DNA from: Planctomycetota bacterium
GTDB taxonomy: Bacteria; Planctomycetota; Phycisphaerae; Phycisphaerales; SM1A02
DNA length: 64,000 nucleotides
NCBI GenBank assembly: GCA_027622195.1
Contig: JAQBZO010000003.1
Span: 1-64,000, forward strand
Direction of reading: 5' to 3'
Part shown: positions 11,570-64,000 of the stretch, piece after piece
Position numbering within the stretch: position 1 is the stretch's first letter
Layout: every line of letters begins with the position of its first letter
Position numbers and translations under genes: made by a program
Notes under the pieces: model-generated
The model's input: the letters and a program-made list of their open reading frames with translations, nothing else
The model's database searches: none
What the model was told of the DNA's origin: nothing

Positions 11570-14500
11570 TTAAGGGCCAAATCCTTGGCAAGGGTCGACC
11601 AGGATGAGGGGATTATTGATATCGAGTGCCACCAAATCATGCGCAACCTGGTACTGGCCAGCCATTCCGTATCCACCAGTGACCACGCGAGTGACGAGAA
11701 GTCCACCTGGGTAAGCGGGGTCTGTCATCACCACATAGTCGCTCGCCGCACGTCCGGTAGGCACGCAGAAGTTCACGGGCGCTGCAGGGATCACTTGTGT
11801 GAGTTGGGAGAATCCAAACAAGTCATAGCGTCGGATTCGAGCGTTGTAAACGAAGACGAACGCATAGGTAATCCCGCCGCTGGTGCGCGAGGCAAGTTGC
11901 ACACGCAGCGTGCTCACATCGGATCCTTCTGTGACATTCAGTGTGCGCTTCACCTGAAGGTCTGTCGCCCGAGCGATGCTTGGATAGAACACGGTTGAAC
12001 CGTATCCGCCCGCAGCAGCACCAGCGGCCACGCCTGTACTTCCCATCCGCATCAGCGCTCCATCGAGTCGCTTCAGCGAAAAAGTGTTTCCAGAAATCAG
12101 CCGTCCAACGAGGATGTTGGCATCGCTGTCATTGCTGAGATCGACCCAGTTGCCCTGAGTGATGGCGAGTCCGCAGTTTCGAGCGTTTGGGAATCCTTGG
12201 ACGAGGCCAATCTCATCGTTGCCTTCGCCTTCAGCATCACCGAGTGCGGGTTCGGCCGCAATGATGGGTGGAGGGGTGACCTGTCCAGCCTGAGGGAATC
12301 GGTTCAAAGGATCCTGCAAGATGTTGCGCCACTCAGCGGCGGGCAATCCGATGCCATCAAAGACAGTCTTGGCATGTGCTTGGAGGCATGCAATCAATCC
12401 ACCGATTTGTGCGACTGCGGCGCTCGTGCCTGTAAATGTCGCTGTGTAACTGCGCAGCTTCTTCTGTTCGTAACAGTCGGGCGTGTATGTCGTCTGAGCG
12501 GTCACGACGGCATCGTCGCCGAGGTACAAGTCTCCATAACCGCAAGTCGTCACGCCGCGACCCCAAGCACTCGTGATGAGATTATTTGTGCCCGCATCTT
12601 GCAAGTCGTAATTGCTCTCACCCACGCGGCCGTAGTTGATGCCTCCGTTGAGTGGAGTAATTCCTTCGCCACTACCCTGTCCAGGCCAGCAGGCGCCAGC
12701 GACAACGCATCGAGTCGTATCAATTCCCGATGCGGCGTCGACAATCGCGGCCTCAACCGCTGACGCTCCGTTGCCTGCTGCAAGAACCCAGGTCATTCCG
12801 CCATCGGCTCCGATGCTCAACAGAATTGAGGTGAGGTCGACTTCGCCATTCGTTCCAGTGTTCATTGGTTGGGTTGATGCCTTGGTCATCGGAACGATGC
12901 ACACATTGGATGGCACGCTTCCGACAGTCTCGGCGGCAGTCATCACATCGATCGCCCCGAGGAGTGCTCCAAGGGTGCGGTCACCGCTGGGGAGTCCTGC
13001 GTCAGGATCACCAGCCGTGAGCGTAGGGAAGAACCACTTCTCGGTCGCGCCTGTGCAAAGTCCGGACACGCCCTTTCCGTCGGCAGCAGCGAAGAGAACG
13101 CCGAGGACCGCTGTGCCGTGGTGAGGCCAAAGCACATCGGGAGTGCCCATCACGACAGTCTCGGAACCCGCACACGCAGGCGGAATCGTGACCGCGCCTG
13201 TGACTGGGTCGAGGTAGTCCGACTCGTCGAGCGTGAGATACAACGGAATGCCCGTCTCAACTTGAATAACGCTCACTCCGCTTGCGCTGAGGAACTCTTC
13301 GTGATTGACGTAGGCGGATCGATCGAGCACACCGACCTTGATGCCCGCTCCAAAAATCTTGGGAGTCTGCAGCGACGGCGTCGAGTTCACGATCAGCGCA
13401 TTGAGTCCGCGCATGTCCAATCCACCCGCGCGGAAATTGGTGACCGCACGGAACGGATCAAAGAGAACATTGTTTGCTGCGGGATTCGGATTGGAATCAT
13501 TCGCCGCTCGGTCTGAGGTACCCCAAAGACCCAGAGGGATGCTTCCCACGGGCGCAGTGAAGGTGGTGCCGCGCACATCGACATTAACAGGTGCCGTGAG
13601 TGGAAACTCAGTCGCCGGATCGACCCCCAGCAGTTCAAAGTTATAGAACGGGGTCGTTGCCGTGTCGGGCGTCAGCTTGTTGCCGATGGAAATGAGATCA
13701 CCTACAACCAGGGCACCAAGATCGCTTCGCAATACTGTGGCGTAGCAAGGTCCGTCCTGCGCGCCTGGATCAGTCCAATTTGGGCTGCTTGGCGGAAGTG
13801 CTGTAAGTCCGAGGGCGAGGGCAACGCAGTTCTCGTCCCACGCGATCGTGCAGCAAAGAAAGTCGTTGGCGCAGACCACGGCGCAGCACGCAGGCAAGTT
13901 GGATCCGGGAAGGGTGTGCGCAATCATTGAACTCGGTTGGATGAAAACCAAGTCTGCGAAATAATCTGTGACGCCGTATCCGTTATTGATGACTCCTCCG
14001 TTGCCGAATGGAGGATCTGGAACCGGAGCATCATTTGGATGCAAGTTATCTGGCGCACCGAAGAACGTGCTGCCGATGCAAGTATCCAATTGGGCGGCTG
14101 GGTTTCCACCGGGGTAGAAACTTGGGGTGCAAAGCAACTCGGCAATGCCGACGCATGTCTGATCCCATGCTCCACCCTCGTCAAAGGACGCGGTGCAGGA
14201 CGCCTGGATGGCGCCAACGGTTGTGCAGCAATCGACAAAATTCACCCCAGGAAACCAGCCGAACTCTGTCAAGCTCACCGGATCGGTGAAAACACCAGTC
14301 GTCGGCGGACCCAGCGGTCCCTCGTACCAACTAAAAGGAGTTCCTCCGCACGCGATATCTCCGCACGTGCCGCAGTCGATTTGTGCTTGAATCGTGCGTT
14401 CTTCAATCTCGACATAGGTCACTTCTGGCATCGAGGCGAATGCGCGTGCGACTTGGACGATGCCAGATCCCGCACCCTCGACATAGAAGAAACTGGCAAG

Positions 14501-14968
14501 GTCTGGATACACCTTCCCGCTGCGAGTGCTGATGCGATTCGTAACTTCGGCGAGGATCGCAGGATCCTTGTCGATCGCCTGGCGCACTTGAAGTCCCAGC
14601 CCCATGGTCAACGCTTGGAACGTGCCGATTTGTGCGTCGTCTTCAGAATGAACTTTTCCGCCCGCAAGAATCGAAGCGCGCGGCGTGAGGTCTTCTCGCA
14701 ACTTGACGATGATTCGCCCCGTCGCAGTCGATCGGCCCGTGCGAGGATCCTTCGGGAGCTCAAGTCGTGCCGAGTCCTTGCGCATCGTTGAGAGGCGATC
14801 CCATTCAGTCATTTCGCTCACCGTTGGGATGTTTCCCAAGGTGGATGAGGTGGGCTGAAGAGTGGTGCCAACATTCAACTTTTGAGGAGCGCGATCTGCG
14901 TCGAATGAAGACGAGGTCAGTGCGATCGCCAAGAGAGCGAGAGGGGGCACGAGGAGTCCCTGAAGCAT
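11570..14968 (-). CDS. secreted subtilisin-like protease with cysteine-repeat modules
   Basis: The protein has 1132 residues from ATG 14968, with CGGAG at 14981-14977. A hydrophobic N-terminal signal segment (LLVPPLALLAIALTSSS) leads a propeptide-like region. Before the catalytic domain are two cysteine modules, about 14127-14240 and 13800-13895, of the CC-x-VC-x5-CC-x3-WD-x2-C type. The S8 triad is D549 (VGVLDRSAY), H617 (PHHGTAVLG) and S849 (TGTSAAVAQ), with oxyanion N733 (LAAGNG). The domain is long and interrupted compared with classical subtilisins of about 270 residues. The C-terminal part of about 250 residues is beta-rich and unassigned. The cysteine module is shared with the giant protein at 60173-64000. 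Substrate is unknown; extracellular action is inferred. Confidence 0.9.
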   Translation of the reverse strand: MLQGLLVPPLALLAIALTSSSFDADRAPQKLNVGTTLQPTSSTLGNIPTVSEMTEWDRLSTMRKDSARLELPKDPRTGRSTATGRIIVKLREDLTPRASILAGGKVHSEDDAQIGTFQALTMGLGLQVRQAIDKDPAILAEVTNRISTRSGKVYPDLASFFYVEGAGSGIVQVARAFASMPEVTYVEIEERTIQAQIDCGTCGDIACGGTPFSWYEGPLGPPTTGVFTDPVSLTEFGWFPGVNFVDCCTTVGAIQASCTASFDEGGAWDQTCVGIAELLCTPSFYPGGNPAAQLDTCIGSTFFGAPDNLHPNDAPVPDPPFGNGGVINNGYGVTDYFADLVFIQPSSMIAHTLPGSNLPACCAVVCANDFLCCTIAWDENCVALALGLTALPPSSPNWTDPGAQDGPCYATVLRSDLGALVVGDLISIGNKLTPDTATTPFYNFELLGVDPATEFPLTAPVNVDVRGTTFTAPVGSIPLGLWGTSDRAANDSNPNPAANNVLFDPFRAVTNFRAGGLDMRGLNALIVNSTPSLQTPKIFGAGIKVGVLDRSAYVNHEEFLSASGVSVIQVETGIPLYLTLDESDYLDPVTGAVTIPPACAGSETVVMGTPDVLWPHHGTAVLGVLFAAADGKGVSGLCTGATEKWFFPTLTAGDPDAGLPSGDRTLGALLGAIDVMTAAETVGSVPSNVCIVPMTKASTQPMNTGTNGEVDLTSILLSIGADGGMTWVLAAGNGASAVEAAIVDAASGIDTTRCVVAGACWPGQGSGEGITPLNGGINYGRVGESNYDLQDAGTNNLITSAWGRGVTTCGYGDLYLGDDAVVTAQTTYTPDCYEQKKLRSYTATFTGTSAAVAQIGGLIACLQAHAKTVFDGIGLPAAEWRNILQDPLNRFPQAGQVTPPPIIAAEPALGDAEGEGNDEIGLVQGFPNARNCGLAITQGNWVDLSNDSDANILVGRLISGNTFSLKRLDGALMRMGSTGVAAGAAAGGYGSTVFYPSIARATDLQVKRTLNVTEGSDVSTLRVQLASRTSGGITYAFVFVYNARIRRYDLFGFSQLTQVIPAAPVNFCVPTGRAASDYVVMTDPAYPGGLLVTRVVTGGYGMAGQYQVAHDLVALDINNPLILVDPCQGFGP

Positions 14969-14987
14969 GAACAATTCTCCGTGGGGC

Positions 14988-15021
14988 AAAACAAAAGCGG
15001 TCTACCGGACATCGGCAGACC
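14988..15021 (-). terminator. intrinsic terminator-like hairpin after purD
   Basis: On the minus strand GGTCTGCCG pairs with CGGTAGACC (14999-15007 with 15013-15021; eight of nine pairs Watson-Crick, one mismatch or wobble) around a 5-nt loop. It is followed by GCTTTTGTTTT. It lies about 35 nt after the purD stop, so it can terminate purD. It also sits in the presumed 5' leader of the protease, whose ATG is only 20 nt further on, so it may act as an attenuator or 5' stabiliser. Confidence 0.7.
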
Positions 15022-52206: not shown

Positions 52207-53975
52207 TGATGCACGCCACAACGAGTCCATCCACCCGTCGCGCTCGCGCCTTCACCCTCACCGAGATTCTTGTGGCGGTGGTCGTGTTGGTCGTGGTCAT
52301 TGCGGCGACAGCGCAGATTTTCGGCACAGCGAGTCGGGTCGCTGGACTCGGGCAGGCGAATCAAGATCTTCTGCAAGAATCGTCGGTTGTTGAGCGCATG
52401 ATTCGAAGCGACCTTGAAAGGCTCGCAACCGAGGGATACATGGTGGTGCAGGGGATTGCCGTCCGGAACGATGCACAGCGCATGTATCCGACTGCTGATC
52501 CCAACGCGCCACTCTTGGATGCAACGAAGTTGCCAGGCGAGTATCTGCGCGCCGATCGAATCGTCTTCTTCGCCACAGGACAAGAAGACACCACTCGCTT
52601 CCTCGGTGGGCGAGATCAAGGTGATTTCGGCGGAGTGCCTGCGACCACACTCTCTCGCATTTCGTATGGACACGCGGTGCAACTTCCAGATTCTGTTGTG
52701 GCGCAAGGGGCGTCCACGCTTCGACTCGATCCTGTTGCCTTTGATGAGGGACCGCTCACGCCGTGGTCGGGAGACAATCCACTGAATGGTCCAAGTCTTG
52801 ATACGAGCAACTGGACCACTGGAGCCGCCGGTCCGCGTCGTAGCGGTCGCCAGCCCGAGGCGCGCGATTGGATTCTTGCAAGGAGTGCGACATTGCTCGC
52901 CCATGATGGAGGATCTCGAGTCCACCTCGCGACCGACAACGCCTACGGAAGTTCGAGTGCGATTTCGGTGATCCAACAGAACAATCTTTGGCAGACGGTC
53001 GCAGCACCTCAACCTTCGCGCGCGATTCTTTCGTCGCGTGTCGATGCGGCGAGTAGCACGATCGAGTCGATCCAACGCACTCTCGAAAACGGTGTGCTCG
53101 TCGATTCGACTGGACAAGTCTTCAGCGAGACCGTCCTTCCTCAATTCAGTGCGACGGCGACTTGGAACAATCAGATTCGCGGACGTATCCTCGGCGCCAC
53201 ATTTGGTCCGATCTTGAATCCACTTCCTCCAGTCGGCGGATGGCCGCGCGCCGAAAAAGTGGCACCCACGATGGATCGTTCAGATCAGATCCTCGTCGCA
53301 CCAATGATTGCCGGGAATTGCAGTTCTGTCATGGTGGACTGGACATGGGATCGGTGGGTTGGACACGAGCATGTTGGGGATCACGAATCCCCTGATGTGA
53401 CGGTGTATGCCAATCCACTCAACCCCGCGGCGGGAAGTTGGAACGCGTCGGGTTATGTTCCAAACTTCGCTGAGCCAAGAGTTTGGTACGGACTTCCAGA
53501 CGGACTTTCAGGTGTTACGAACCGAGGTGTGTACTCGTTGACTCAACTTGTGGGCACTGGTGTACCGCTCACGGGATGGAATTACGTGACAGGACCAAAC
53601 CAGCCCACGCTTTTTCCTCCGCTGTGGGATCCAGTTTCTGGAATTGGTCCACAGCGCATTGAGGGAGCAAGTGTCGCTGCGCTGGGCCAACCCGTACAGG
53701 CGTGGCCGTCCACTGCAAATGCAGTGCTGTATGTGTACAGCGCCGTTTTTGGATTCAAGCACACGCAGGGCGTTGACTTGGTAGCGAATGCGACGATGAT
53801 TGATCCCGTCACCAATATGCCGCGAACGGTTGCAGTCGCACGGAACGATGTGACTCCACTCCCTAGTGCGCTTCGATTCACGATTCGATTGCATGACAAA
53901 GATAAGAAGGTCGAAGGCGGACGCGAGTTTCAGTTCGTCGTCGAATTGACTCGAGCAGGAGGGCGTGAGCGATGA
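52206..53975 (+). CDS. GspJ-like pseudopilin
   Basis: The 589-residue protein begins MMHATTSPSTRRARA and then FTLTEILVAVVVLVVVIAATAQIFG, with Ala before the cleavage site and Glu at position 5. SSVVERMIRSDLERLATEG matches the GspJ helix region. The gene is about 2.5 times normal J length; ATG 52209 is an alternative start. It overlaps GspI by 1 nt and GspK by ATGA. Its place between I and K supports the J call. Confidence 0.78.
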   Translation: MMHATTSPSTRRARAFTLTEILVAVVVLVVVIAATAQIFGTASRVAGLGQANQDLLQESSVVERMIRSDLERLATEGYMVVQGIAVRNDAQRMYPTADPNAPLLDATKLPGEYLRADRIVFFATGQEDTTRFLGGRDQGDFGGVPATTLSRISYGHAVQLPDSVVAQGASTLRLDPVAFDEGPLTPWSGDNPLNGPSLDTSNWTTGAAGPRRSGRQPEARDWILARSATLLAHDGGSRVHLATDNAYGSSSAISVIQQNNLWQTVAAPQPSRAILSSRVDAASSTIESIQRTLENGVLVDSTGQVFSETVLPQFSATATWNNQIRGRILGATFGPILNPLPPVGGWPRAEKVAPTMDRSDQILVAPMIAGNCSSVMVDWTWDRWVGHEHVGDHESPDVTVYANPLNPAAGSWNASGYVPNFAEPRVWYGLPDGLSGVTNRGVYSLTQLVGTGVPLTGWNYVTGPNQPTLFPPLWDPVSGIGPQRIEGASVAALGQPVQAWPSTANAVLYVYSAVFGFKHTQGVDLVANATMIDPVTNMPRTVAVARNDVTPLPSALRFTIRLHDKDKKVEGGREFQFVVELTRAGGRER

Positions 53976-56900
53976 CACAGCAGTCTTTCTTCAGTAGCCG
54001 TCGTGGAAACACGCTCGTCCTTGTGACTGCGATTCTCGTGCTGCTCGCCATTGTCGCGGCGGCGTATCTCTCTCGCACTCAAGCGGGACGAGCGACGGCG
54101 GCGGCCCAGCAGAAATCGAGTTCGCGCGGTCAACGGATTGATGCCATCGCCGACAACATCTCGCAGATGATCGGTGATGCACTGTTCACCCGTCCTGCTG
54201 ATCCGAGCGACCCTTGGCTCTTGATTCCTCCAATGGGTACTGGATCCATGCCGACTCCTTCGCCTTCGCGACCTCGCGGATTCGTGGACGGCAATGCACA
54301 TCGATACAACATTGACACACTCGATGTGTTCCATCGGTTGAATGCGCAACCGGGAACAGACGGGATTCCAGAGGGATACAACTACGCGCCGTTCGTCGTG
54401 CAACCTTGGACCAATTGGCCCGATATCTTTGGCGTGTTCCCAGGCGACGGCAATCCCGCTGGAAATCCAGGATTTGGCGATTCGAGATGGCTTCGCAGCA
54501 CGGAACCGACGCGACAATTGGTCACTCCAGGTGACGGACCCATTCCCAATTTCTCACCCTTCGGTGGATTCACCCATTGGCAGCACTTGAGTTGGCTGCC
54601 CACCGCGGACAACGGGTGGCGTCTCATCACTGACTTGAAGGATGTGGATTCATCGCTCGCGGCTTCGATTGCAATGACTCCCGCAGCACTCGGTGTCGCT
54701 GCGACGGGTGCTGGCTGGGCACTCGATCAACCCTACGAACAATGGTTGCCAGATGTCATCCCCGCGGCAATCTATGGAGCTCAACTCAACGGTACCGCAG
54801 GATCCGTTGCACTCGCGCAGCAGTTTCGAACCGATTCGCAAGCGTGGTTCTCGAATTACCTCAATCGGGTCGGAGTGCTGAACTCTGGTATCGGTGCGAA
54901 TCCTCTCCCCAACTTGTTCCGCCTCGCATCGTTCGGCGTGGAGTCGGATGACTATGTTGATGGCAGCGCGCGCAACTTGATTACTCGCACATTGGCTGAT
55001 GCCGATGGTGATGGATTCACTGACTCGTATTGGTTCCTCGCGCCAACGAGTGCTGACCGTGGCGTTCGGCAGGCGGTCGCCGTGTCGATCACTGATAACG
55101 CAGGACTGGTGAACGCCAACGTCGCGACCCGATTCGATCGACGAACAAGTTTTGGTGCAACGCCCGCGGATGTGGCGTTGGTGACCACATTTGATCTGAC
55201 GGCATTTGCATCCAATCCGTTCGATGTGCCTGTTGGATTCTTTACGGATCCAGACAACTCATCCGAGCCAGGAACGGGGGCAACTGCATCATTCCTCTAC
55301 CCACCGACTCGCGTTCGCTTCGATGACGCGATGTACGGTGGTGCGACCAACGTAGCCACCGCAGGATCCGCTTCCACAACGCTGTTGACTGGAGATGCGG
55401 ACAATCCAACATTGCTTCGCGCACTCGGTGTTGTCCGCAATACCAGCGCAACAACCTCTGCCCTCTTGGATGCATTTCGAGAACAGCTCCTCACCTCGGT
55501 CGAGCGCGTGCGTTGGTTCAAGGCGATGGGTTCGGATGGCGAGATCACCAGTTGGATCAATCCCGACGAGACAGCATCGGGAGGACCCGCCGCCACGATT
55601 TTCATGAGGTCTGCGAATGGAATGCCTCCTGGACGAATCCGACCGTTCGATGAGTCAGATGAACTCGAACTGCGAATGAGTTCGTCGAGCAACAACGCAT
55701 CGGTGATCTCGCGCTTCGAGAGGGCAGTACAGCGCGTTGATGCGTGGGGTGCAGGAGCGAATGTCCCCTCTGCATCGCACTATGACTTCTTGCGCGCAAG
55801 TGGCGATCGACTCGAAACGCTGGACGCATTAGAGCAACAGTCCACTGCGACCGGTGGGCAATTCGATCGATTCCGACGGTTGAACGCAGTGCAATTGCTC
55901 CGCGACAATCGTCGCAAGCTCACACTCATCAGCGGATCGCGCAATGAACTGATGCCACCGTGGCTTTGGACTGTGCCTCACGGCAACTTCAATCCGCAAA
56001 CGGGAACATGGGCTTATTCCGCTGGGTTCGCGCCCGGGCAAGTGTGGCAGGCGGAAGGTGCACAAGCTTCGTTCGGCCATTTTCCTGCGGCAGCGTTCAC
56101 TCGCACGGATTTCCTCGCGTGGAACCGCAAGGTCGATCTTCGGAAGGCTGCTCCCGATCCCGTCTACTCGTCTTCAGGACAGCTGTTGAATGCTGCCGCA
56201 CTCAAGGCGGATCGATACGAATTCCTGAATCAAGTTTCGCGTGTTTTTGAACGGGCGTTGCTCGACCGAGATACGCGAACGACGTACTTCGGAATCGAAG
56301 CTTCGGGCAGTAACGAACTCTTGATGACTCGGAGAATGATTGCGAGTTGGGCTGCGAATCTTGAATGTTTCCGAGACTCGGGTAAGCAGTTCAGCCAGTC
56401 TGTGTTGATCGATCAGCCGTTCCATCCTGCAGAGGGTTACACCATTGCGGAAGATGCAACGGGGTCGAATCAGCGCATTTTCATCGGTCAGGAGAAGCAG
56501 CCGTACATTCAGGAAGTCTTCTTTGCCTTGGTGTATCCGAAGAGCGTGGTACCCCCTGGTTATCCCGCTGTGGGCGGCACGACGCCGAACCAGATTCCGT
56601 TCGGTTATCCAGGTGGTGGTGAGCACTTCGTGGCCTACGACGAGGCGGGTGGTCCAACGCAACAGCCCGCGATCGTGATGGCGGTTCAAATTGCGAATCC
56701 GCATCAAGAGCCCATAACGCTCACTGACTTCGCCATCCGAGCGTTTGGACAAACGTTTCGCTTCGCACAACCATCCTCGACCGGTTGGGGATACGGACTC
56801 GGACCGGTTCTTGGACCAGCGACTGAGACCACTCCACGCAGTGCGATTGTCTTCGCGTGTCCAAAGCAGTTCTCAGATCGTCCATTCTTCCGTGCCGAAA

Positions 56901-59320
56901 TGATGGACTTCCTCGACATCACCCATGATTGGGTGCGACCTGGATTCACTCCTCCCGCGCAGCAGGCGTATCCGAGCGCGCTGCAAGCAGAATTGCTCGC
57001 GGCAGTAGGTTCTGGTGTGACGCCGTGGCCGCCGACTCCAGCGACAACGGCGGCGGACCTCTTCGAGGATTCCAATACCGCGTACGCCGACACGCTCGTC
57101 TTCAACGCGACCATCGAAGCAGGCAACCTCGTGGGGCGATGGGAGGATGAGAATCCCACTGTCTACAAGAACTATCTCACCGGCGGCACCTCTCCGACGG
57201 TGGAACTCATTCGGCGAGTCGCTCCGCTCGACCCTGTGATTGGACCGGCGTTGGATGTCGTGGTCGATCGCATCGAGAATGATTTCAATTCCAATTCGGG
57301 TGACTTCCGTGATGTGCTCGCTCGGATGTTTGATCCGACGGGCGGTTACATCCCGCCCGCGCCGACGACGTATGACCCGAATGCGGATCCAAACAATCCG
57401 TTGTCATCGCGTCCACCTTCATTCAATGGAGTTCGCCTCGGCACGAACGGTGATTTTTTCTGCACCTGGGTTCGAGTCGCGCGCCCTTGGGCTGCATCAG
57501 TCGATCCCGATGGACCTGGAGCAGTCACGGCGGATGACGAGATTCAATTGATTGAGCGCGTGCCTCGTTATGTGATTGCTGCGGGCCAGCGTCCCATTGC
57601 TGTCAAGACACAGCAGGATTGCAAGGAGAATGGAGTGGATAGCCCTCGCACTGGAAGTGTTTGGGCGTCGACTGAAGATCCAGACGGACTCTCGGTCACG
57701 CAACCCGCTCCCTGGTTCGTGACATCGTCGAAGGACCCCATCGGCCGCATGGTGCGCGGAAAGCCAACGCGCTTTTCAGGACAAGGGGTCTTCCAAAATG
57801 CTGGAGGAACAGGGGGCACCGACCGCCTTTATCCTGGATTTGTCCCAGTCCTGGATTACGCGGTAACGCTGGTGTCGGCGGGTGGAACTTCACTCTTCGT
57901 TATTCCTGGAGACAAGGGGATTGCACCCGAAACGACGACCGCCGAGATTTGGAAGACGCCTCTGGATATGTCGGTGAAGGACGGAGACTTTGAACAGATC
58001 GCTGAGATCGCGAATGTCTTCCAGTGGGGTCCCGTGATCACGTCGGGCGGAGCTGGTGGATACTCCACCTACGCGACATTCTCAGAAATCATGTCGGGCG
58101 AAGTTGATGAGTTCCCTGTCATCCACGCGATGTCGGATGAAGCCCCGAATCCCATTTGGAAGTTTGCGAACAGGCTCTCATTCCCGTACGACCCGCTCTC
58201 TGCCGATCAATCCCTTCCACATAGTTTTGATCCCACCAAGACGCGCACATTGTTGCAGAGTGTCGTCGCGTTCATTCCGCCACTCCCCGCAGGATGCTCT
58301 CTCTTCGATGGATTCACCATCGATGACCGAGGCGCGGCGCCATTTGCAGCGAACCCTAGCCAGTTGGTCGTTGGAGCGACAACCCAAGCGGAGCACGAGA
58401 ACAATCTGGTTCGTGCGGAAGATCGGCGGTTTCGACTTGCAATGGGATATCAAGCGGAGGCCACTCCGGGCATGGTGAATCTGAATACCGCGCTCCTTGA
58501 AACGATTGGAGCCATGCCCTTCATGACGCGACTTGTTCTTAACGAACAAGCGTCTGGACCAGCTTGGGCCACATCCTTTGGAACGCCGACGGATCTCAGT
58601 ACATGGAGTAATCCGACGGGAGGGATGCCGTATGTTCGCGTCCCGTCGAGCCTGATTATGTACAGAGATCTTCGCGGTGGATCGATGCCCTATACGCCGA
58701 GCAACACCACACTCCCGCCTCTGTACACCGACCGTGGTTTGGCTCCCGAAACGATTCCAAACACTCCAGGCATGTGGGATGGAATGCGTCGCGGCCAAGG
58801 CATTTGGTCACTCGGCGAATTGGCGCTCATGACCCGAACGGTCGGCGTCGTTCCCGTCGGCAGTACGACGGGATTGCCTGGTACGAGCGGCGACCGCAAC
58901 TGGTCGATTCAATACGCTGCTCTTGATCCATACGACTATGGCGGCATCGGATGGAACTCGGGTCGATCGATGGACGCTCGAGTGAGTCTCGATCGAACGC
59001 CGTTCGTCATCCAAGAGGACAACCTTTCGACGACAGTGATCGAGCCGACAATGATTGCCAGTGATGGCGAAGCGGGCACGGCTGAAGAAGCCAATATGTT
59101 GCTTGGTGGAATCATGAATAGTGCGTCGGTGCGAAGCGATATTTTCACTGTCCATTTCATCGTGCGCACATTTCGGCAGAACAGTTTGACGGGACGTTGG
59201 AATGCGACTGATCCAACTGCAGTGCTCGACGAGTCGCGCTATGTCATGCTGGTCGATCGATCGAACATCGATAAGCCAGGACAAAAGCCTCGGATCCTCT
59301 ATTTTGCAAAGGCCCCTTGA
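53972..59320 (+). CDS. giant GspK-like protein, 1782 residues
   Basis: The N-terminus SSRRG then NTLVLVTAILVLLAIVAAAYLSR resembles GspK/PilX: a class III signal without Glu at position 5, as known for GspK. GspK features recur in the body: SITDNAGLVNANVATRF near the start and GMVNLNTALLETIGAMP at about residues 1501-1517, like the D-x-x-G-x-hN-x-N and hNLNTA-x3-L-x-x-hP segments of GspK. Usual GspK is about 320 residues; here over 1100 residues lie between these segments and beyond, with no transmembrane helix. It is the last gene of the pseudopilin operon. GspK caps the pseudopilus; a receptor role for the large part is inferred. Confidence 0.82.
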   Translation: MTQQSFFSSRRGNTLVLVTAILVLLAIVAAAYLSRTQAGRATAAAQQKSSSRGQRIDAIADNISQMIGDALFTRPADPSDPWLLIPPMGTGSMPTPSPSRPRGFVDGNAHRYNIDTLDVFHRLNAQPGTDGIPEGYNYAPFVVQPWTNWPDIFGVFPGDGNPAGNPGFGDSRWLRSTEPTRQLVTPGDGPIPNFSPFGGFTHWQHLSWLPTADNGWRLITDLKDVDSSLAASIAMTPAALGVAATGAGWALDQPYEQWLPDVIPAAIYGAQLNGTAGSVALAQQFRTDSQAWFSNYLNRVGVLNSGIGANPLPNLFRLASFGVESDDYVDGSARNLITRTLADADGDGFTDSYWFLAPTSADRGVRQAVAVSITDNAGLVNANVATRFDRRTSFGATPADVALVTTFDLTAFASNPFDVPVGFFTDPDNSSEPGTGATASFLYPPTRVRFDDAMYGGATNVATAGSASTTLLTGDADNPTLLRALGVVRNTSATTSALLDAFREQLLTSVERVRWFKAMGSDGEITSWINPDETASGGPAATIFMRSANGMPPGRIRPFDESDELELRMSSSSNNASVISRFERAVQRVDAWGAGANVPSASHYDFLRASGDRLETLDALEQQSTATGGQFDRFRRLNAVQLLRDNRRKLTLISGSRNELMPPWLWTVPHGNFNPQTGTWAYSAGFAPGQVWQAEGAQASFGHFPAAAFTRTDFLAWNRKVDLRKAAPDPVYSSSGQLLNAAALKADRYEFLNQVSRVFERALLDRDTRTTYFGIEASGSNELLMTRRMIASWAANLECFRDSGKQFSQSVLIDQPFHPAEGYTIAEDATGSNQRIFIGQEKQPYIQEVFFALVYPKSVVPPGYPAVGGTTPNQIPFGYPGGGEHFVAYDEAGGPTQQPAIVMAVQIANPHQEPITLTDFAIRAFGQTFRFAQPSSTGWGYGLGPVLGPATETTPRSAIVFACPKQFSDRPFFRAEMMDFLDITHDWVRPGFTPPAQQAYPSALQAELLAAVGSGVTPWPPTPATTAADLFEDSNTAYADTLVFNATIEAGNLVGRWEDENPTVYKNYLTGGTSPTVELIRRVAPLDPVIGPALDVVVDRIENDFNSNSGDFRDVLARMFDPTGGYIPPAPTTYDPNADPNNPLSSRPPSFNGVRLGTNGDFFCTWVRVARPWAASVDPDGPGAVTADDEIQLIERVPRYVIAAGQRPIAVKTQQDCKENGVDSPRTGSVWASTEDPDGLSVTQPAPWFVTSSKDPIGRMVRGKPTRFSGQGVFQNAGGTGGTDRLYPGFVPVLDYAVTLVSAGGTSLFVIPGDKGIAPETTTAEIWKTPLDMSVKDGDFEQIAEIANVFQWGPVITSGGAGGYSTYATFSEIMSGEVDEFPVIHAMSDEAPNPIWKFANRLSFPYDPLSADQSLPHSFDPTKTRTLLQSVVAFIPPLPAGCSLFDGFTIDDRGAAPFAANPSQLVVGATTQAEHENNLVRAEDRRFRLAMGYQAEATPGMVNLNTALLETIGAMPFMTRLVLNEQASGPAWATSFGTPTDLSTWSNPTGGMPYVRVPSSLIMYRDLRGGSMPYTPSNTTLPPLYTDRGLAPETIPNTPGMWDGMRRGQGIWSLGELALMTRTVGVVPVGSTTGLPGTSGDRNWSIQYAALDPYDYGGIGWNSGRSMDARVSLDRTPFVIQEDNLSTTVIEPTMIASDGEAGTAEEANMLLGGIMNSASVRSDIFTVHFIVRTFRQNSLTGRWNATDPTAVLDESRYVMLVDRSNIDKPGQKPRILYFAKAP

Positions 59321-59321
59321 G

Positions 59322-60071
59322 GTGAGTAGTTCTGTGTCCACGCAATCTGAATCCACACCCACGACTCAATCGACGGTTCCTGCTCACATCGCCATCATCA
59401 TGGATGGCAACGGACGCTGGGCGAAGGCGCAGGGACTTCCGAGGTTGATGGGACATCAGGCTGGTGTGGATGCGGTGCGTCGAGTGGTGGAAGCGTGCGC
59501 CCATCGTGGCGTTCGCTACCTCACGATCTATTCGTTCAGCACCGAGAATTGGTCGCGCTCGGCTGATGAGGTTCGAGGACTCATGTCGCTGGCGAAACTC
59601 CAACTCGCTGTGCAAAGGCGTGGTCTTGCCGAAAACAATGTCCGCTTCAAGCATCTCGGTCGTCGTGAGGGACTTCCCGCAGAAGTGTTGTCAGAACTCG
59701 ACTTGACGGTGGCAGCGACAGCACACTGCACAGGATTGACCCTGAGCGCAGCGGTGAACTACGGTTCGCGCCAAGAGATTGTCGATGCCGTTCGATCGAT
59801 TGCGCGAGAAGTCAAGGATGGAACATTGAATCCTGACGGGATCGATGAGGCGATGATCGCGGCGCGTCTGTGCACGGCCGACATGCCCGACCCCGACCTC
59901 GTCATTCGCACGGCGGGGGAGATGCGACTCTCGAATTACCTCCTCTGGCAGTCCAGTTACGCTGAGTTCATCGCACTGCCTGTCCTTTGGCCCGATTTCA
60001 ATGAGGATCATCTCTCCCGAGCGATTGCGGACTATCAAAAGCGCACAAGAACGTTCGGAGGACGAGCGTGA
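59322..60071 (+). CDS. uppS: undecaprenyl diphosphate synthase
   Basis: The 249-residue cis-prenyltransferase makes the lipid carrier for peptidoglycan and polysaccharide synthesis. It has IAIIMDGNGRWAKAQGLPRLMGHQAG (catalytic Asp28), LTIYSFSTENWSRS, and the C-terminal PDPDLVIRTAGEMRLSNYLLWQSSYAEF. GTG 59322 is chosen as the longest start outside the giant GspK-like gene; GTG 59334 is possible, and upstream in-frame codons lie inside that gene. It begins 1 nt after the preceding stop. Confidence 0.95.
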   Translation: MSSSVSTQSESTPTTQSTVPAHIAIIMDGNGRWAKAQGLPRLMGHQAGVDAVRRVVEACAHRGVRYLTIYSFSTENWSRSADEVRGLMSLAKLQLAVQRRGLAENNVRFKHLGRREGLPAEVLSELDLTVAATAHCTGLTLSAAVNYGSRQEIVDAVRSIAREVKDGTLNPDGIDEAMIAARLCTADMPDPDLVIRTAGEMRLSNYLLWQSSYAEFIALPVLWPDFNEDHLSRAIADYQKRTRTFGGRA

Positions 60072-60129
60072 GTCCCTGTTCATTTGGTGCTTCAATGCGC
60101 GGATTTCTGGCGCGGCACCGCTCAGGGGC

Positions 60130-60135
60130 TATACT
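60130..60135 (+). promoter_or_regulatory. candidate -10 element of the cysteine-repeat gene
   Basis: TATACT at 60130-60135 (5 of 6 consensus) lies about 38 nt before ATG 60173. No good -35 is present at 16-19 bp upstream. It falls in the only gap between uppS and the giant gene. Low-confidence. Confidence 0.35.
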
Positions 60136-60172
60136 CCTTCAGACGTCACGCCCTCTGCATGACGAACAGATC

Positions 60173-63100
60173 ATGCACGCCCTTTCGAGCATTCTGAGTG
60201 GATGTCGCGCAGCCTTATTGCTCGTTGTATTCGCATGGGCATCGACCTCGCAGAACGCTCAAGCGCAAATGCCTTGGACTGGCATGTCTTCGTACTACGG
60301 TGATCTCAACAATGATCGACTCGTCGACGATGCGGACATGGCAGTACTCAACGCCGATTTCGCGAGTGGTGCCTATGTGACTCGCAGCGATCTGAACCGA
60401 GACGGAATCGTGAACCAGCTGGATGCAGGAGACCTGACTCGCGCGATCGCATTCGCACGCGAGGGTCCTGGAGAGCCTTCGATCAAGATCCCTCAGTTCT
60501 ATTTTTCTGAGTTGCGTTGGGGCAATCCAAACTCGCAGAGTCTCTTTCTGCAGGCACGGTTTCTGGAATTCGGTGTGACCGCTCAACCGAAGGCTGCTCC
60601 GTTTTCTGGCACATTCCCAACGGGCGTGTATTACATCGCCATTGGAAAGGAAGGTTCAGGACAGGCTGCGAATCAGGGCATCATTCTGAAAGTAGAAGAT
60701 CTTGCAGGAATGGCGTTCGGCACCTTGGGTGGCAGTCTTGACCGTTGCCTTGTCATCGATCCAATCTCTGCAGATTCCTTTCCATTCACTATCCCTGCGA
60801 CGAGTCCTATCAATCTTTCGGATCGAAGCCTTGGTGATTTTGCATGGGAAGACATGAATATCTCCCATTACTTGGTCTATCGGCGTCCAACGGCACTCGA
60901 TCCGGCCTACACGAGCCCACTCGCGAGACCAGAGCCAGGGCAAGACATTGCGACACAAGCCAATCCGTGTGAGATTGATCCACGCACTGGAGTTGTGGGA
61001 GACCAACTGCCTCCATGGGACCTTGTCATTGACGCATTCACCACAGTGCGCAGTTCCAATCCAGGAGCTCCAGCGATTTTCGGTTGCCTGTACGCGCAAG
61101 GTGATTCGTACCAAGTCGGTCCAGACGGATTCTTCAGTGCCCCGTACCACGCTTGGCGTTGCGAACCATTCGGCACATGGCGTTTCAATAGTCCGCTCGC
61201 CACGGGAGCAGACACGCCTGGATCAACCAACCTCCTGTGCAATCCTGAGAATTTTTGCGGATCGACCGTGTCGGGTTCATGCACGACTCCGCACAGCGGA
61301 CCATTCTGTTCCGACATCGACTGTTGCAACTGGGTGTGTTCGCAAGATGCCGCCTGCTGCACACTGAGCTGGGACAGTTCGTGCGCAGGACTCGCCGCGG
61401 CGGGATGCACCAGTTGCGGAGGACTCGGCACGGGTAGTTGCTTCGATGTGCATGTCCTCTCGAACTGCGACGACCTCGCGTGCTGCACGCTCGTGTGCCT
61501 CCAAGCACCTGAGTGCTGCTTCCAGGGAATGGGTTGGGATGCCAACTGCGTCGAACTCGCACGGGCTGAGTGTCTCTCGTGCGGAAGTTCAGTGCCAGGT
61601 CCTTGCGACACGGTGCACGCGTATCCGTCTTGCTCTGATGCTGAATGTTGCACGGTCGTGTGTAGCGCAGACCCCGCATGCTGCGCATTGACATGGGACC
61701 AATCGTGCGTTGACGGAGCCCTCTTGCTCTGCAGCCCCTACGAATGCGGATCGCAACTCGCTGGATCCTGTTGCCTCTCGCATTCCACGCCTGGCTGTAG
61801 AGATGCCTTCTGTTGCCAATTCATCTGCACCATGGATGCGTATTGCTGCGAGGTGCGGTGGGATGTGGTTTGCGCGATGTTGGCGGATACCGAGTGCGGA
61901 CTGCAATGCGCCTGCGGTCCCATCGAAACGAGCGGTGGACCAGTCTCCTTGAGTTGTTTCGCGACTCATTACAGTCCAGGTTGCGGCGACTGGGGTTGCT
62001 GCGACACCATTTGTAATGCTGATCCATTCTGCTGCGCTGTGAGCTGGGACGAAGCATGCGTCGCCGTGGCCAATCACTTCTGCTCATCCTCATTCGCGGA
62101 TGTCTGTGGATATCAACTCGACAATATCCCGCTCGCCGCAAGTTGCGTGGTCCCTCATCCATGGGGAGGATGCGAAGACGGCGGTTGCTGCGACTCAGTG
62201 TGTTCGCTTTTCCCAGAGTGCTGCACCGTCATCTGGGATGAAGCGTGCGTTGCCGTGGCCATCGACATTTGCGAACGATGCGGAGAAGCGCTCACGGAAA
62301 GTTGTTTTTCTGCGCATGGAAGCCCAAACTGCAATGCGACCGCGTGCTGTGACGCCGTCTGCGCCATCGATCCATTCTGTTGCTCTGACGAGTGGGATTC
62401 CGTGTGTGTGAAGCAAGCCATCGCAGTATGCGGAGATCCCATCGAGGCGTGCGGAGGCACGACACTTCGCCCATGCGAGGTTTCATCTGGACTCCCAGGC
62501 TGCAGCAACGCCGCATGTTGCACCGACATCTGCACCAATTACGACTCGTACTGCTGCGATGTGGTATGGGATGCGATCTGCGTCCAACAAACAATGGTCT
62601 TCTGCCCCGATGTGCAAACGGGTGGTCGCGGAGATTGTCTCCAGGTGCATGAGCAGATTGGTTGCGGCAATCCAAGTTGCACTGCGACAGTGTGCAGCGT
62701 CGATGTTGCATGTTGTGTCGCAACATGGGATCAGTCGTGTGTGAATGCAGCGGAAGCATTGTGCATCGCCGTGAACCTCTGCCCTGGCGTAGGAAGCAAA
62801 ACTGTGGTGCATCCGACCCCAGGCTGCGCCGATACGGCTTGTTGCAACGCGGTCTGCCTCGTCGATCCAACCTGCTGCTCTGAAGCGTGGGACGCAGCGT
62901 GCGTCCAAGCAGCACTTGTGCAGTGCGCCACGCTCGCTTCGTGGGAATGCCCATGTTTTGGCGATCCCTTCAGTATTCATTCCAATCCAGGATCCGATGA
63001 TGCTTCCTGCTGCGCCATCGTTTGTCAGCTCGATCCTGGTTGCTGCATCGACGGTTGGGACGAACAATGTGTCGTGATCGCGCGCGATCGATGCTGTGGT

Positions 63101-64000
63101 GCGATCGGATGCGGGAGCGGATGCAACGGCGACTGCTTCACTGAACACAACTCTCCATACTGCGCCGATCCATTCTGCTGCTCGGCAGTTTGCGCTGAAG
63201 ATCCGTACTGCTGCATCGGAGCATGGGATGGATTCTGCGCGGAAATCGCGAGCGTGCGGTGCAGCGGATGCGGCACTGATTCGGTGCAGATGGGCTGCTT
63301 CACCGAGCACATTGGACGAGGATGCAATATCGACGAGTGTTGCACATCGATCTGCGGCGTGGATCCATACTGCTGTGAAACGGTGTGGGACGCGACCTGC
63401 GCCGCCTCAGCGGGAACGGATGCCGATTGCACGGGAGCTCGCGCGGAATGCGGAGCACCGCTGCTCGGAGAACCGTGCATCGAACACCTTGATGTGGGCT
63501 GCAACGACGAACAATGCTGCGATGCGGTCTGTTTGTTGGATCCGTACTGCTGCACCTATGCATGGGATGGGACGTGTGTCGACCTCGCGTTGGCGAATTC
63601 CAGTTGCCCCTGTGCGAAGGACTGCGGCGACGCCTGCGCTGGAGAATGCTGCGAACCTCATGCAGGTCCATCATGCGACAATGAGGAGTGCTGCGGTTTG
63701 GTCTGCGCCGCCGATGCATTCTGCTGCGCGACCGAATGGGATGAAGTCTGCGCGAGTTCTGCTCGAGCACTGTGCTACGCGACAGGGGATGCATGTCCAT
63801 ACACATGCGGCATTCCAGGATCGAAGAGTTGCTGCGTCATTCACATTGGTGCGACATGCGATAACGAAGCGTGTTGCTCAGAGGTGTGCGCGGTGGATAT
63901 CTTCTGCTGTGTTCAGAGTTGGGATTCCGCTTGCGTCGCTCATGCGGCCAAAATGTGCGGCGACCTTTGCTCGCAGCCCAGCCTCTTCTGCGGATCCGCG
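60173..64000 (+). CDS. giant secreted cysteine-repeat protein with N-terminal dockerin-like module, partial
   Basis: The frame is open from ATG 60173 to the right edge (1276 codons); the C-terminus is missing. A signal peptide (AALLLVVFAWASTSQNAQA) is followed by two EF-hand loops: D44-x-N46-x-D48 to D55 and D73-x-N75-x-D77 to D84, spaced as in a type I dockerin. Residues about 95-350 are unassigned. From about residue 360 come at least 16 repeats of about 57 residues with core CC-x2-VC-x2-DP-x-CC-x3-WD-x2-C and a preceding H-x3-G-C. Each unit has eight to ten cysteines, so many disulfides or metal sites are expected. ATG 60095 lies in frame upstream but would spoil the signal peptide. Function unknown. 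Confidence 0.9.
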   Translation, partial: MHALSSILSGCRAALLLVVFAWASTSQNAQAQMPWTGMSSYYGDLNNDRLVDDADMAVLNADFASGAYVTRSDLNRDGIVNQLDAGDLTRAIAFAREGPGEPSIKIPQFYFSELRWGNPNSQSLFLQARFLEFGVTAQPKAAPFSGTFPTGVYYIAIGKEGSGQAANQGIILKVEDLAGMAFGTLGGSLDRCLVIDPISADSFPFTIPATSPINLSDRSLGDFAWEDMNISHYLVYRRPTALDPAYTSPLARPEPGQDIATQANPCEIDPRTGVVGDQLPPWDLVIDAFTTVRSSNPGAPAIFGCLYAQGDSYQVGPDGFFSAPYHAWRCEPFGTWRFNSPLATGADTPGSTNLLCNPENFCGSTVSGSCTTPHSGPFCSDIDCCNWVCSQDAACCTLSWDSSCAGLAAAGCTSCGGLGTGSCFDVHVLSNCDDLACCTLVCLQAPECCFQGMGWDANCVELARAECLSCGSSVPGPCDTVHAYPSCSDAECCTVVCSADPACCALTWDQSCVDGALLLCSPYECGSQLAGSCCLSHSTPGCRDAFCCQFICTMDAYCCEVRWDVVCAMLADTECGLQCACGPIETSGGPVSLSCFATHYSPGCGDWGCCDTICNADPFCCAVSWDEACVAVANHFCSSSFADVCGYQLDNIPLAASCVVPHPWGGCEDGGCCDSVCSLFPECCTVIWDEACVAVAIDICERCGEALTESCFSAHGSPNCNATACCDAVCAIDPFCCSDEWDSVCVKQAIAVCGDPIEACGGTTLRPCEVSSGLPGCSNAACCTDICTNYDSYCCDVVWDAICVQQTMVFCPDVQTGGRGDCLQVHEQIGCGNPSCTATVCSVDVACCVATWDQSCVNAAEALCIAVNLCPGVGSKTVVHPTPGCADTACCNAVCLVDPTCCSEAWDAACVQAALVQCATLASWECPCFGDPFSIHSNPGSDDASCCAIVCQLDPGCCIDGWDEQCVVIARDRCCGAIGCGSGCNGDCFTEHNSPYCADPFCCSAVCAEDPYCCIGAWDGFCAEIASVRCSGCGTDSVQMGCFTEHIGRGCNIDECCTSICGVDPYCCETVWDATCAASAGTDADCTGARAECGAPLLGEPCIEHLDVGCNDEQCCDAVCLLDPYCCTYAWDGTCVDLALANSSCPCAKDCGDACAGECCEPHAGPSCDNEECCGLVCAADAFCCATEWDEVCASSARALCYATGDACPYTCGIPGSKSCCVIHIGATCDNEACCSEVCAVDIFCCVQSWDSACVAHAAKMCGDLCSQPSLFCGSA
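61255..63996 (+). repeat. 16 or more tandem cysteine-rich protein repeats
   Basis: Sixteen units can be laid out by eye, averaging about 171 nt. Well-preserved examples include CCDTICNADPFCCAVSWDEAC, CCSAVCAEDPYCCIGAWD and CCTSICGVDPYCCETVWD. The DNA of the units is much less alike than the protein, so the array is old or selected at protein level. Linkers vary from about 10 to 25 residues. A few units depart from the pattern: one has CTATVC for CCxxVC (about 62673), one lacks the first GC cysteine (about 62990). The array continues past the edge. Confidence 0.9.

Follow-up and report, generated by a model that had tools for sequence, protein, structure and literature searches.

A cysteine-rich module common to a predicted secreted subtilase and a 17-unit array protein in one family of Phycisphaerae

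What does a small cysteine-rich module do in a protease, and is it the same module that fills a large repeat protein encoded some 46 kb away? The question arises from a 64,000-nucleotide stretch of a planctomycete contig (Phycisphaerales, SM1A02; the whole stretch is called the window here), in which a first-pass annotation had noticed two such motifs ahead of the catalytic domain of a subtilase, and had taken their likeness to the repeat protein as a hint of common export, anchoring or self-assembly. The features delimited in the window are collected in Table 1; M1 and M2 are the two modules of the subtilase, and the numbering of the cysteines (C1-C9) is explained below.

Table 1. Position and basis of the features in the window
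Feature	Position	Strand	Basis
Subtilase (S8) gene, from ATG	11570..14968	-	ORF, Pfam PF00082, motifs aligned with relatives
Presumed propeptide (VKLREDL...MPEVTYVEIEERTIQ)	14375..14707, approximate limits	-	Conserved in relatives; pattern and position
Module M1, conserved VG subtype without C5 and C7	14123..14236 (aa 252-289)	-	HMM, 16.8 bits
Module M2	13790..13939; core 13811-13930 (aa 354-393)	-	HMM, 44.4 bits; alignment; AF2
Array protein	60068..64000, past the window end to C13:64144	+	ORF; first unit ~61271

The full open reading frame of the subtilase spans 11570-14989 and begins with TTG; the ATG at 14968 is the end that had been taken before. Its N-terminus resembles a signal peptide (MLQGLLVPPLALLAIALTSSS). 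The match of the window protein to Pfam PF00082 (Peptidase_S8; domain at aa 548-873) falls slightly under the cut-off (20.9 versus 21.8 bits), while that of its same-genus ortholog passes (22.1 bits) and more distant relatives score 59-66 bits. A profile of the subtilase group matches subtilisin structures, and the D, HGT, AAGN and GTSAA motifs align between the window protein and its relatives. By profile and by the predicted Asp/His/Ser triad (D556/H624/S856, numbered from the TTG start) we assign the protein to the S8 family. At the position of the catalytic Asp the window subtilase has D (VGVLDRSAYVNHEEF), and several relatives, including L012, L014 and L015, have E (IKVGVIEFAAFINHEDF and similar) and retain HGT, AAGN and GTSAA-type motifs. 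The propeptide is presumed from its pattern and position, and gave no match to Pfam I9.

Both motifs ahead of the catalytic domain are real copies of one module, as had been proposed. The HMM used for scoring excluded the subtilase and was trained on 25 units, drawn from four further proteins of this genome (the array protein and those listed as C10, C28 and C2). The scores of M2 and M1 (Table 1) compare with 4.6 bits for the best domain among 2000 shuffled proteases. M2, the core of which is CCAVVCANDFLCCTIAWDENC, has Ser in place of both C1 and C2 and keeps C5 and C7; M1 reads CCTTVG..C..WDQTC. The match to the array-type spacing also held, in the exact form CC-x2-V-C-x5-CC-x3-WD-x2-C and not with CC-x-VC, as given by the first-pass annotation. 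The likeness of M2 to array units extends beyond this motif, to H...PG[C/S] upstream and Vx2A downstream. In a neighbour search, M1 and M2 of the window were nearest to M1 and M2, respectively, of the same-genus subtilase, and not to array units, so the sharing is old and was not brought about recently by exchange with the array that lies 46 kb away.

A single module comprises about 46 residues, with the consensus GxCxxxHxxPGCxDxxCCxxVCxxDPxCCxxxWDxxCVxxAxxxC and, usually, nine aligned cysteines (C1-C9). The Trp, C6 and C8 are nearly invariant among the units. Given alignments of related units, AlphaFold2 models two array units (pLDDT mostly 90-95) and M2 (pLDDT 86-94 over the module, lower in the flanks) alike, with the same three short helices. 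Over the modules there was no matching model in Pfam or NCBIfam, and no profile (sequence) match in the PDB. Foldseek, a tool weak for very small domains, returned nothing from the PDB at E<=0.001, VIA-align found nothing, and matches in BFVD were not significant. Nor did we find a description of the module in the literature searched.

The cysteines of the module tend to disappear in pairs. In a MAFFT alignment of 590 units, C5 and C7 are jointly absent from the same 12 units and singly from none (Fisher p=3e-25, a value that overstates independence, since the units share ancestry). Joint loss of C1 and C2 affects 17 units, loss of C2 alone 2 and loss of C1 alone 18. These paired losses predict that C5-C7 and C1-C2 form disulfides. 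Subtilases account for nine of the 12 units without C5/C7, the array of another genome for two and a further protein for one; such confinement to subtilases and two other proteins points to few independent events. Units without C5/C7 outside subtilases are in L042:181-2460 and L032:427-3141, so that more than one origin of the variant is probable.

Does the lack of C5 and C7 make M1 a degenerate copy, as it had been called? A relative of the subtilase was found in 137 of the 151 family genomes sampled. All 28 scored subtilase ORFs fetched from the family search carry M2 and 25 carry M1, one ORF having an extra M1. Subtilase relatives yielded 26 M1 copies, of which 25 are without both C5 and C7 and one has both. 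The M2 copies inspected read CC..VC.....CC, with the C5/C7 pair kept, except for L133, a CS..VC variant (the M2 state was read by eye, since regular-expression labels misplace C5/C7 in many rows; the count for M1 was confirmed in the same way). The order propeptide-M1-M2-S8 recurs throughout the family. M1 is thus a real module for which the word degenerate is misleading, because its form without C5/C7 is conserved in relatives. It is an old, conserved subtype and not a decaying one, predicted to have lost one disulfide (C5-C7), the cysteines of which M2 retains.

The source genome contains 26 module matches in five proteins. Among 61 relatives, the module is present in 35 of the 37 genomes of the same family, in 1-111 copies each; the remaining 24, which belong to other families of the order, have none. 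Two phyla were sampled directly, planctomycetes and Myxococcota. In the planctomycete sample, at E<=1e-4, 8 of 10 family members matched and none of the 382 genomes from outside the family did: within the sampled phylum, the module is confined to one family. In Myxococcota, 46 of 282 genomes have matches. A genome-wide scan for VCAxDP[FY]CC returned 438 stretches, 418 of which encode the whole module; this, together with the absence of matches in the sampled planctomycetes outside the family, shows that the motif is not a common generic one, the possibility by which the earlier proposal could have failed. That protease and array share a module family is shown. The 80 scan stretches kept are mostly planctomycete/Phycisphaerae MAGs and include three Nannocystaceae loci (two from Paraliomyxa miuraensis and one from isolate SSF46). 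Some module contigs are titled as unrelated groups (L092, L093, L097, L120 (Limnohabitans); L104 (Bacteroidia); L061 (Singulisphaera)) and are likely mislabelled or mis-binned MAGs. No relatives were found in viral contigs, phages or plasmids.

The array protein has a dockerin-like domain near its N-terminus (Pfam Dockerin_1, 20.6 bits, under the cut-off of 22.9), followed by 17 module units when read on the full contig. Nine other arrays also have exactly 17 units, and in each of them 6 to 17 of the window units best match the unit of the same index, so that copy number and unit identity in the array look old and fixed. The window, a same-genus genome (G002:C30) and one other genus (G018:C16) all have protease and array on opposite strands at a distance of ~45-55 kb, which is probably plain synteny. 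A 1782-aa open reading frame near the array (53972-59320, plus strand) starts with RRGNTLVLVTAILVLLAIVAAAYLSRTQ, which resembles a type IV pilin-type N-terminus.

What else the module is attached to, which the first-pass annotation had proposed to list, became apparent upon scanning 66 module proteins. Peptidases among them are reprolysin-like (metzincin), M43, M64, trypsin, S46 and M57; the other domains are lectin C, GBD_T9SS_assoc (galactose-binding), PPC, P-domain and dockerin, the GC-type dockerin being present on five proteins. These known domains are of types that are usually secreted. Signal-peptide-like N-termini were scored, by a crude test, in 54 of 91 module proteins versus 49 of 257 other ORFs. 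With such N-termini enriched and the attached domains of usually secreted types, the common export suggested earlier is plausible and can reasonably be inferred. Anchoring is only suggested, by the dockerin-like C-termini of 45 of 93 module proteins (regular expression, a rough test); on the window subtilase, Pfam and NCBIfam detected no dockerin. Self-assembly would be a conjecture only. The protease had no match in PADLOC.

We consider it most probable (at roughly 57%) that the module is a disulfide-stabilised accessory domain of extracellular proteins, exported and bound outside the cell, which would aid the folding, stability or attachment of the protease. One family of Phycisphaerae, along with some Myxococcota, would add this ~46-residue unit, three short helices held by several predicted disulfides, to secreted hydrolases and surface proteins. 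After export, the modules would oxidise into compact, protease-resistant units. In the subtilase, M1-M2 may stiffen the stretch ahead of the catalytic domain, and binding of the modules to substrate, matrix or the cell surface may keep the enzyme in place outside the cell. As M1 and M2 are N-terminal to the catalytic core, maturation could strip them off along with the pro-region.

Taken further, this position allows the main rival reading, unlikely though worth weighing, in which M1-M2 are part of the pro-region, aid subtilase folding or latency in export, and are cleaved off at maturation. Throughout the subtilase group the two modules always lie between the propeptide and the catalytic domain, and the linker that follows them, ~150 variable residues up to the catalytic Asp, would give room for a cleavage site. 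However, in at least one metzincin (L053) the modules (from 456) come after the catalytic domain (reprolysin match 217-418), and in many carriers no protease domain was detected, which makes a general role in pro-regions unlikely. We give only a small chance to the module being a generic disulfide-knotted spacer without a specific partner, gained and lost via duplication and recombination. Such a spacer would accommodate the wide range of copies per genome, the varying positions of the module within proteins and the repeated loss of cysteine pairs, but not so easily the near invariance of the Trp, C6 and C8, the constancy of M1 and M2 in subtype and order across many genera, or the retention, in ten sequences of one array, of exactly 17 units that are orthologous by position.

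The CC/H pattern might also mark a module that binds metal (zinc-type) and is no disulfide domain, given how common a His is at the fourth residue after C1 (317 of 546 units). This is very improbable: the His is often replaced (by N in 85 units, R in 22 and S in 21), the cysteines vanish in pairs, as expected of disulfide partners, and the carriers look secreted. A chance or generic cysteine-rich likeness of two unrelated proteins, for which the shortness of the motif might speak, has a negligible probability and is refuted by the HMM scores against shuffles, the clade-restricted distribution and the architecture conserved in orthologs.

Genomes of an abundant aquatic lineage, most of it uncultured, contain up to ~110 copies of the module, which is absent from the domain libraries searched; naming it would connect many 'hypothetical' proteins and secreted proteases. 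M1 and M2 form a natural pair for comparing a module that has one predicted disulfide with a module that lacks it, and the paired losses provide disulfides that can be tested. Some module loci are from Lake Zurich MAGs (ZH-13MAY13-plancto series), from the study of freshwater planctomycetes that named Nemodlikiaceae/CL500-3. The Nemodlikiaceae/CL500-3, which may differ from the family of the window, are reported to have lost several amino-acid pathways and to have rich amino-acid and oligopeptide uptake (PMC6461901). Proteases displayed extracellularly would suit such an auxotrophic, peptide-uptake life style.

The closest known systems share features with the module or its carriers. Cellulosome scaffoldins resemble the array protein, in architecture only, by combining repeated small domains and a dockerin-like domain in one protein. 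Unlike them, the array is made of modules whose sequence is not that of cohesins (Pfam gave no match), and here enzymes bear both module and dockerin. A putative cellulosome-like assembly outside the cell, with module and dockerin-like domains as its two halves and the conserved 17-unit array as a scaffold for carriers of modules or dockerins and for secreted proteases, serving protein breakdown in Phycisphaerae, seems to us quite improbable. S8 subtilases with an accessory PPC or P-domain have the same Asp/His/Asn/Ser motifs and likewise carry an accessory domain on a secreted protease; in the window protein, however, the accessory units are cysteine modules and stand before, not after, the catalytic domain. 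GC-type dockerin-anchored proteins (NCBIfam NF041540) and planctomycete Dockerin_1 domains, presumed extracellular, make up the C-terminal region in many of the module proteins, but that region is a separate calcium-loop domain, whereas the cysteine module has another sequence and its own predicted fold. The Myxococcus cysteine-rich repeat (TIGR02232, GEECDDGN type) is also short, found in secreted proteins and present in Myxococcota, but its motif differs from that of the module. One protein, L116, has both, with one GEECDDGN-type repeat at 240 (by regular expression) separate from three modules at 414-567.
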